Position numbers and translations under genes: made by a program
The notes under the pieces: generated by a model
What the model was told of the DNA's origin: nothing
The model's input: only the letters and a program-made list of their open reading frames with translations
Database searches by the model: none
Part shown: positions 22,499-24,365 of the stretch, piece by piece
Layout: every line of letters begins with the position of its first letter
Position numbering within the stretch: position 1 is the stretch's first letter
From: a virus
Strand: one strand, 5' to 3'
Virus record (IMG/VR): IMGVR_UViG_3300000124_000004
Coordinates: 1-24,513 of that record
Length of the DNA: 24,513 nucleotides

Positions 22499-22569
22499 TG
22501 GAGCCCCAGCAGGGAGTCGAGCCCTGACCGTCACGCTACGAGGGTGACGCCTGTCCCACAGACAGGGGC
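22499..22569 (-). tRNA. tRNA-Thr(CGT), tiny D loop
   Basis: The gene is short: 68 nt before CCA. The acceptor GCCCCTG pairs with CTGGGGC with one T.T mismatch. Only 15 bases separate acceptor and anticodon stem; the D arm reads CTGT-GGG-ACAG, a 3-nt loop. The anticodon loop CTCGTAG gives CGT, with a C.C mismatch next to the loop. The T loop starts with C instead of T (CTCGACT). It may still work or be decaying. The 5' half can also form a competing hairpin, CCTGTC/GACAGG. Confidence 0.7.
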
Positions 22570-22571
22570 GT

Positions 22572-23541: not shown

Positions 23542-23625
23542 TGGTGGGTCGTCAGGGGATCGAGCCCTACCAGCCGAAGCATCGGTTTTACAGACCGTCC
23601 CGCGTCCTTAGCGAGATACCGACCC
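23542..23625 (-). tRNA. tRNA-Tyr(GTA)
   Basis: At 81 nt before CCA this is the one clearly long tRNA of the array. The anticodon loop CTGTAAA gives GTA. An extra variable arm containing GC-TTCG-GC is present, as normal for bacterial tRNA-Tyr. The acceptor GGGTCGG pairs with ACGACCC except the last pair (G.A). The T loop is CTCGATC. CCA is encoded. Confidence 0.9.
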
Positions 23626-23628
23626 AAG

Positions 23629-23700
23629 TGGTCCCCCGGATAGGATTCGAACCCACCGTTCAGGCTTAGAACACCTGTTACCGATCCACCGGACCGGGGG
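23629..23700 (-). tRNA. tRNA-Arg(TCT)
   Basis: It has 69 nt before CCA. The acceptor CCCCCGG pairs perfectly with CCGGGGG. The D arm is small (CCG-GTGGAT-CGG). The anticodon loop GTTCTAA on CAGGT/GCCTG gives TCT, reading AGA. The T loop is TTCGAAT. CCA is encoded. Confidence 0.88.
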
Positions 23701-23704
23701 ATAG

Positions 23705-23779
23705 TGGAGGCTCCTGACGGAATCGAACCGTCGTCAAGGTGGTCTGCAACCACCCGCCTTCCCATTTAGCATAGGAGCC
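23705..23779 (-). tRNA. tRNA-Cys(GCA)
   Basis: The acceptor GGCTCCT pairs perfectly with AGGAGCC. The anticodon loop TTGCAGA on a perfect GGTGG/CCACC stem gives GCA. The T arm is GACGG/CCGTC with TTCGATT. The discriminator is T, as usual for tRNA-Cys. CCA is encoded. Confidence 0.94.
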
Positions 23780-23784
23780 AAGTT

Positions 23785-23812
23785 TGGCGCGTCGTGAGGG
23801 ATTCGAACCCCC
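23785..23812 (-). pseudogene. 3' half of an interrupted tRNA-Arg(ACG): T arm, acceptor strand, CCA
   Basis: On the minus strand this segment holds a T arm (GGGGG, loop TTCGAAT, CCCTC), the acceptor strand ACGACGC, discriminator G and CCA. Directly before it are 14 bases and then the CCA of the intact tRNA-Arg(ACG), so there is no room for a D arm or anticodon arm here. The acceptor strand is the exact complement of GCGTCGT at 24284-24278, the start of an orphan tRNA 5' half. The two pieces together make a canonical tRNA. Confidence 0.85.
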
Positions 23813-23826
23813 GTCGTCACGCTATC

Positions 23827-23903
23827 TGGCACCACCGAGAGGAGTCGAACCCCCATATGCACTGGTTCGTAGCCAGCCGCGTTATCCATTACGCTACGGT
23901 GGT
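23827..23903 (-). tRNA. Intact tRNA-Arg(ACG) inside the interrupted tRNA
   Basis: The acceptor ACCACCG pairs perfectly with CGGTGGT. The anticodon loop CTACGAA on GCTGG/CCAGT gives ACG (23870-23868). The T loop is TTCGACT, and CCA is encoded. The first 15 bases overlap the end of the HNH gene. The anticodon is the same as that of the interrupted tRNA, and the core TGGCTACGAACCA is shared between them, while the acceptors differ. It could replace the lost function. Confidence 0.93.
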
Positions 23904-24224
23904 ATGTTGCCCGCGAGTCCACGTCCGCGCCGCATGGCAGTTGGCACACACCAACTCGCACTTGGCAATCTCCTCCATGACCCGCGGAAGCGTTGTGCTG
24001 ACGGACAACTTCGCAACATTGGCGACCTTGCCGTCGATGTGATCGAACTGCATCACGTAGAACGGGTACTGCTTGCCGCAGTCAGCGCACGGACGATCTT
24101 CCTTGTAGCGCTGGACCGCCGCCTTGACCTCCGCGCGGCGACGCTTGTTGCGTTCGCGGTAGTAGTCAGGCTGTTCCCGGTAGTGGTCGGCAGATGTCCT
24201 GTAGTCGAAGTCCGGGTTACTCAT
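23889..24224 (-). CDS. HNH endonuclease inside an interrupted tRNA
   Basis: This 111-residue protein starts at ATG 24224 (MSNPDFDYRTSADHYREQ), with AGGAG at 24240-24236 and an 11-nt spacer. A longer in-frame start at 24320 would read through tRNA-Gln and is rejected. Residues 15-40 are a very basic helix (YYRERNKRRRAEVKAAVQRY). The core has C46-x2-C49 (CADC), FDH with His62 (MQFDHIDGK), then CELVCANCHAARTW with C93, Asn95, C96 and His97. This is the zinc-containing HNH fold of small phage homing-type endonucleases. Its stop TAA lies within the following tRNA-Arg. It sits between the two halves of a tRNA-Arg(ACG), which suggests it moved there as a mobile gene; its cut site is unknown. Confidence 0.9.
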   Translation of the reverse strand: MSNPDFDYRTSADHYREQPDYYRERNKRRRAEVKAAVQRYKEDRPCADCGKQYPFYVMQFDHIDGKVANVAKLSVSTTLPRVMEEIAKCELVCANCHAARTWTRGQHTTVA

Positions 24225-24235
24225 TGAAACCCAAT

Positions 24236-24240
24236 CTCCT
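24236..24240 (-). promoter_or_regulatory. AGGAG ribosome site of the HNH gene in the tRNA variable-loop position
   Basis: AGGAG follows directly on the anticodon stem of the tRNA 5' half and precedes the HNH ATG by 11 bases. The same five bases would be the variable loop in an uninterrupted tRNA. This decides the HNH start. Confidence 0.75.
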
Positions 24241-24284
24241 AATGGTTCGTAGCCATTGGCACCGTTCCGCTGTGCTAACGACGC
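24241..24284 (-). pseudogene. 5' half of an interrupted tRNA-Arg(ACG)
   Basis: On the minus strand, starting seven bases after the CCA of tRNA-Gln, the segment has acceptor strand GCGTCGT, TA, D arm GCAC/GTGC with a 9-nt loop containing GG, one base, and a perfect anticodon arm AATGG/CCATT. The loop is CTACGAA (anticodon ACG at 24250-24248). It is a normal tRNA up to position 43. AGGAG then takes the place of the variable loop and acts as ribosome site for the HNH gene; no T arm follows. The matching T arm and acceptor are at 23812-23785. Confidence 0.87.
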
Positions 24285-24291
24285 GTGATGT

Positions 24292-24365
24292 TGGCAACCC
24301 CACAGGGATTCGAACCCCAATCATCTGGCTCAGAACCAGAGATCCTACCGTTGAACGATAGGGTT
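24292..24365 (-). tRNA. tRNA-Gln(CTG)
   Basis: The acceptor AACCCTA pairs with TGGGGTT. The anticodon loop TTCTGAG on a perfect TCTGG/CCAGA stem gives CTG. The T arm has loop TTCGAAT. CCA is encoded. It is the first tRNA of the array, nine bases after the stop of the partial gene upstream. Confidence 0.92.

Follow-up and report, generated by a model that had tools for sequence, protein, structure and literature searches.

We analysed a 24,513-nucleotide stretch of viral DNA, referred to here as the window (positions 1 to 24,513 of IMG/VR virus record IMGVR_UViG_3300000124_000004), in which a transfer RNA (tRNA) gene for Arg(ACG) is broken in two. ARAGORN calls about 25 tRNA genes in this record, a virus fragment of 28,317 bases, and misses a few others. 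Along the minus strand, the locus comprises the 5' half of the tRNA-Arg(ACG), an HNH endonuclease gene, an intact tRNA-Arg(ACG) and the orphan 3' half. The 5' half, GCGTCGT-TAGCACAGCGGAACGGTGCC-AATGG-CTACGAA-CCATT, contains the acceptor 5' strand GCGTCGT, the D arm and the complete anticodon arm (AATGG-CTACGAA-CCATT). The 3' half, GGGGG-TTCGAAT-CCCTC-ACGACGC-G-CCA, supplies the T arm, the acceptor strand ACGACGC, the discriminator G and the CCA end. The two acceptor strands pair at all seven positions (7/7), which argues against an origin of the halves from different tRNAs.

ARAGORN called neither half, so that the intact tRNA-Arg(ACG) was its only call between the Gln(CTG) and Cys(GCA) neighbours; once the flanks had been joined, the program called a tRNA Arg(ACG). 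The intact tRNA overlaps the final 15 nt of the HNH open reading frame (ORF), and no other intact Arg(ACG) was found in the record. Another metagenome assembly (L003) shares 99.93% identity over 7224 bases, with 5 differences, none of them within positions 23785-24284; an assembly artefact is therefore unlikely. A near-identity search of a phage collection with the window gave no match, and the exact pattern of its 5' half was found among viral contigs in the sister assembly L003 alone. Collectively, these data bear out the first-pass annotation in its description of a genuinely split tRNA-Arg(ACG) whose halves enclose an HNH gene and an intact tRNA of the same anticodon.

The features of the locus are listed in Table 1. 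Just upstream of the HNH start, an AGGAG motif could serve as a ribosome-binding site, and the spacer GATAGCGTGACGAC may end with what was the broken tRNA's variable loop. Elsewhere on the minus strand, three tRNA genes uncalled by ARAGORN were recognised by eye: Tyr(GTA) at 23550-23626, Arg(TCT) at 23629-23703 and Thr(CGT) at 22500-22570.

Table 1. Features of the interrupted tRNA-Arg(ACG) locus and its neighbours in the window.
Feature	Positions	Strand	Basis
tRNA-Gln(CTG), left neighbour of the slot	24292..24365	-	same in empty-site relatives
Orphan 5' half of tRNA-Arg(ACG)	24241..24284	-	read directly; joins with 3' half to tRNA-Arg(ACG) by ARAGORN
Junction and putative leader, 5' half to HNH start	24225..24240	-	read directly
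HNH endonuclease gene, 111 aa	23889..24224	-	PHROG match and motif
Intact replacement tRNA-Arg(ACG) with CCA	23827..23903	-	ARAGORN; Rfam tRNA 53.4 bits
Spacer, replacement tRNA to 3' half	23813..23826	-	read directly
Orphan 3' half of broken tRNA-Arg(ACG)	23785..23812	-	read directly; 7/7 acceptor pairing with 5' half
tRNA-Cys(GCA), right neighbour of the slot	23705..23779	-	same in empty-site relatives

Uninterrupted slots and recurrence in other tRNA genes

Two relatives identified through their portal proteins (L010 and L011; portal 59-62% identical to that of the window phage) carry a tRNA array largely collinear with that of the window. It starts with Gln(CTG), Arg(ACG) and Cys(GCA), and further on contains Gly(TCC), Leu(TAG), Asp, Lys, Trp, Thr(CGT), Asn and Glu(CTC), followed by Leu(CAA), Glu(TTC), Thr(TGT), Thr(GGT), Gly(GCC) and the portal gene. 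Between Gln(CTG) and Cys(GCA), both relatives lack an HNH gene and have a single tRNA-Arg(ACG) without interruption; by gene order, this slot is the empty site of the insertion in the window. As L010 and L011 are identical in the compared stretch, they count as one comparison. Gene order was used because their tRNA-Arg has diverged from the window's halves. The cassette and broken tRNA-Arg differ from each other, and the empty-site tRNAs are too diverged for the native one to be told by sequence.

Similarly, the slot occupied in L154, a 111.7-kb contig related to Streptomyces phages, holds one intact tRNA-Trp and no HNH gene in the Streptomyces phages Alone3, pSt2308, GiJojo and BRock. The order Thr-Thr-Thr-Leu-Leu-Trp-Asn and a gene for a Ro-like protein are common to L154 and the four phages. 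Uninterrupted relatives, which the first-pass annotation had proposed to look for, thus exist by gene order at two sites, each with an occupied and an empty allele. Separately, the tRNA-Trp genes of L250-L253, which lie in one syntenic slot of related Streptomyces phages, mostly have very different sequences; this suggests that tRNA genes in the slot are frequently replaced.

To follow the arrangement beyond the window, relatives of the HNH gene were fetched from viral contigs, the first set comprising 144 distinct ones. A tRNA lies within 40 bases after the HNH gene in 33 of these 144, usually overlapping the HNH stop codon. Reading of the flanks revealed the complete arrangement at five further loci, namely L084 (His-GTG), L109 (Met-CAT), L116 (Glu-CTC), L154 (Trp-CCA) and L218 (Arg-ACG). 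At all six clear loci, the window included, the broken and the intact tRNA have the same anticodon. The Trp locus L154 is the most straightforward recurrence: its halves join without loss, ACT to GA, into a complete tRNA-Trp. L119 (Arg-TCT) is probably a further case, with both halves present and a spare that ARAGORN does not call. At L119:2905-2990, and likewise at L111:2940-3015, the HNH 3' end continues into an element that resembles a tRNA in having an acceptor, an anticodon hairpin and a T arm; the D arm is missing from its normal position, a stretch containing GG comes after the anticodon hairpin instead, and the outer stem covaries between the two loci (CGC/GCG and CTC/GAG).

Joining across the flanks yielded an ARAGORN tRNA at exactly 5 of 34 first-set loci, each with the anticodon of the intact neighbour. 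As the program also joined mismatched flanks into tRNAs (81 of 891 pairs), we took acceptor pairing as the criterion rather than ARAGORN alone. The own acceptor strands pair 7/7 at the six loci, compared with at most 5/7 in 30 mismatched 5'/3' combinations. Crude half detectors gave many null hits and were replaced by a stricter automatic test, which found halves at 7 of 180 HNH loci (permutation mean 0.45, maximum 3; 2000 permutations). These hits include L152, a simple split; L084 was missed, its orphan T loop being one base short. Non-HNH gaps in tRNA arrays contained a simple split tRNA in 0 of 131 cases, in a control not built to detect the type with a replacement; to the extent that no simple split was encountered around other genes, the arrangement goes with this HNH family. 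At the simple splits of tRNA-Asn(GTT) (L152:2438-2938) and tRNA-Arg(TCG) (L116:2417-2924), the HNH gene, of the same family, ends with a TAG stop codon inside the T stem of the 3' half.

In the stretches fetched from four records (window, L154, L116 and L218), no tRNA other than the replacement has its anticodon, and the spare accordingly fills a vacancy made by the cassette. The L109 stretch has two tRNA-Met genes, which may be an initiator and an elongator. The orphan halves are relic-like: besides the short T loop at L084, the 3' half has been lost at L052, L133 and L342.

The junctions and the HNH protein

Across the family, the left junction is close to the anticodon loop and often precedes the HNH start by about 28 nt. 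The L154 junction is three bases past the loop, as given by the join of its halves, and those of L119, L152, L116, L084, L218 and L133 are at about the same position by eye. In the window, whose 5' half retains the whole anticodon arm, the breakpoint can be placed only approximately because no close uninterrupted relative is known. The first-pass annotation had set the break at the edge of the T stem; the 5' half does end after the anticodon arm, but the junctions of the family relate to the anticodon loop and not to the T arm.

We then examined 81 HNH-tRNA pairs, including bacterial contigs, for copies of the anticodon loop within 100 bases upstream of the HNH gene. The exact 7-nt loop of the downstream tRNA was present in 10 of the 81 pairs (permutation mean 0.8, maximum 5) and its reverse complement in 7 (mean 0.5, maximum 3). 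The direct copy often starts 27-30 bases before the ATG. The inverted copy stands immediately before the start codon at L118, L119, L127, L139, L152, L163 and L172, and several loci have a TATAAT-like (-10-like) box between the two copies. At L343, an inverted copy is likewise found directly before or close to the HNH start. The window itself has no inverted copy before its HNH start. A general inverted-repeat test (arms of at least 7 before the ATG) gave no excess, with 4 of 37 tRNA-followed HNH genes against 16 of 143 others; only the anticodon-specific version of the repeat exceeds its null. In T4 endonucleases, operators resemble homing sites and leaders fold into hairpins (PMC2988022); by analogy, the inverted loop copy may be an operator or a hairpin.

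The HNH protein of the window matches phrog_3106 (HNH endonuclease, E=2.8e-27) and phrog_2255 (1.4e-22). Its motif C-x2-C ... DH ... C-x2-C-H is complete, and the catalytic columns C..C, DH and C..CH are unchanged across 24 relatives. The Pfam HNH match is weak (0.053, under the cut-off), and a PDB sequence search with the protein returned nothing. The AlphaFold model has a predicted local distance difference test (pLDDT) score of 89, and its top Foldseek matches, the HNH nickase 4h9d and T4 endonuclease VII, are weak. An assignment to the GIY-YIG nucleases does not apply, the PHROG matches being to HNH families only.

The same HNH family is not confined to phages, as HNH genes directly before a tRNA also occur in bacterial contigs. 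In this respect, the scope of the HNH family is wider than the phage setting considered in the first-pass annotation. In bacterial assemblies L262-L340 (Saccharibacteria, other Patescibacteria, Chloroflexi, Actinobacteria and Acidobacteria), genes of this family directly precede tRNA genes for Arg(TCG), Gln(CTG), Phe(GAA), Pro(TGG) and Trp(CCA). In the bacterial contigs L296 and L313, the HNH gene is additionally preceded by a 5' half of matching anticodon. At L334:1440-1810, in an Acidobacteria metagenome-assembled genome, an HNH gene lies between tRNA halves GCCGAAG and CTTCGGC (7/7) without a spare.

A cassette model and its alternatives

We consider it quite probable that the window contains an HNH homing cassette inserted in a tRNA-Arg(ACG) gene, which carries a substitute isoacceptor and does without splicing. 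The basis is the broken halves, an intact tRNA that alone in the record has their anticodon, the relatives in which the slot is empty, and the recurrence in other isotypes. The selfish unit would consist of an HNH endonuclease gene whose 3' end is fused to a complete tRNA, and would have inserted just 3' of the anticodon arm. The insertion would destroy the target gene, and the cassette tRNA-Arg(ACG) would take over decoding; because of this replacement, no splicing would be needed and the insertion would be near neutral. We envisage that uninterrupted tRNA genes are targets of the HNH protein, which would cut them close to the anticodon stem-loop, and that repair from an occupied genome copies the cassette in via the flanking halves, as in intron homing. 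The cassette tRNA would escape cutting through sufficiently different stems. Where the acceptor stems are alike, recombination may fuse the 5' part of the cassette to the 3' part of the target, leaving no orphan 3' half. The first-pass annotation had already proposed a mobile unit that breaks and replaces its target, a proposal now supported by the empty slots and by the recurrence of the HNH-tRNA unit in four other isotypes (His at L084, Met at L109, Glu at L116 and Trp at L154), each with a matching anticodon.

Several points weigh against this model. Cleavage and homing are deduced from the biology of homing endonucleases, expression of the cassette is presumed, and the empty site in L010 and L011 rests on gene order, not on base-by-base alignment. 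Most of the 81 HNH-tRNA neighbours have no recognisable halves, and many may be ordinary neighbours or decayed copies. In two cases, the HNH gene of L152 (Asn) and the second one of L116 (Arg-TCG), a tRNA is split but no spare was seen next to it; such simple splits could be a precursor state or outright tRNA damage. Finally, the tree of the HNH proteins gave no resolved branching that would document movement of one HNH lineage between isotypes.

Many phages have HNH genes between intact tRNAs, and same-isotype tRNAs flank the HNH gene at L098, L118, L139, L147, L169 and L173. The window gene might correspondingly be an ordinary free-standing homing endonuclease, with the broken tRNA an independently decayed copy after tandem tRNA-Arg duplication. 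We regard this as unlikely, because the empty-slot relatives hold one Arg(ACG) and not two, and because the window's broken and intact copies are strongly different in sequence. Moreover, decay of a tandem copy would not leave its two parts on either side of an HNH gene plus another tRNA. At six loci, the halves enclose both together and retain 7/7 acceptor pairing. That pairing, and the good tRNAs that the halves can form on paper, would also suit joining in RNA, either intron-like or by trans-splicing, the insert then being a novel gene-carrying intron. This reading is very unlikely: no group I intron or other ribozyme family exceeded the Rfam thresholds in the window or seven related loci, the shortened T loop and the missing 3' halves are as expected of relics, and a tRNA with the same anticodon is already there.

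The crude half detectors hit mismatched pairs too, as they would if random 5'-like and 3'-like fragments lay around an HNH gene; chance or artefact is nonetheless contradicted by the second assembly, the strict permutation test and the recurrence with matching anticodons, and its probability is negligible. A phage might also keep the nuclease for tRNA supply against host tRNA-cleaving defences, the split being a by-product. The precedent is SegB, which adjoins phage tRNAs, cuts in tRNA genes and drives amplification of these genes (PMC13096335). SegB is, however, a GIY-YIG enzyme, and tRNA copy number is not raised here, as the spare only restores one lost gene; we rate this explanation as highly improbable.

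Known systems and biological meaning

The proposed cassette resembles HNH homing endonuclease genes that sit within and split phage protein genes, in that the host gene is broken; to our knowledge, those genes carry no replacement copy. We also considered a tRNA-targeting integrative element, which would bring an integrase and att repeats that restore the tRNA 3' end, and rejected it, as the insert consists of an HNH gene and a whole tRNA only and the halves stay broken. The nearest analogue is found in fungal mitochondria, where endonuclease ORFs carry a replacement gene C-terminus (PMC3630166), as in atp6 of Allomyces macrogynus and atp6, atp9, cox2 and nad3 of Glomus (PMC3630166). There, too, the host gene is split by an endonuclease ORF, which supplies the missing part from a foreign source, and the native end stays behind as a relic. 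In the fungal cases, however, the split genes encode proteins, the enzymes are of the LAGLIDADG or GIY-YIG type and only a 3' piece of the gene is carried, joined in frame, whereas the phage cassette combines a whole substitute tRNA gene with an HNH enzyme.

The free-standing homing endonuclease SegB of T4 shares with the cassette a gene among phage tRNAs and a target in tRNA genes, and is reported to amplify tRNA-Tyr in phage T6 (PMC13096335). It belongs to the GIY-YIG family, and the available parts of the two sources describe neither a split tRNA nor a carried replacement (PMC13096335; PMC2988022). Group I introns with homing endonucleases in tRNA genes likewise place an endonuclease near the anticodon in a harmless insertion (PMC3984707). 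Unlike them, the cassette has no ribozyme, no intron family reaching the Rfam gathering score in the window or the seven related loci, and function would be restored by a second gene rather than by splicing. Among open-licence papers, we found no published description of a tRNA version of such a cassette.

In a wider view, to which we give about even odds, the loci belong to a widespread class of spare-part homing elements. Their HNH genes would always insert at one position beside the tRNA anticodon loop, in phages and possibly in bacterial chromosomes, each with a whole tRNA of the same anticodon. The inverted loop copy before the HNH start would then be an operator or hairpin that limits expression.

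On the usual view, a selfish gene can invade an essential gene only by means of a splicing intron or intein, or else it lands between genes. A cassette that brings a spare of the gene it breaks would be a third way. It would offer a reason for the fast turnover of tRNA genes in phages and a route by which tRNA genes spread, and it warns that tRNA annotation overlooks relic halves. The recurrence over at least five anticodons makes target choice and the resistance of the spare directly testable. Taken together, the findings point to a type of selfish gene that has been overlooked, one that renders its own insertion harmless and recurs in unrelated phages.
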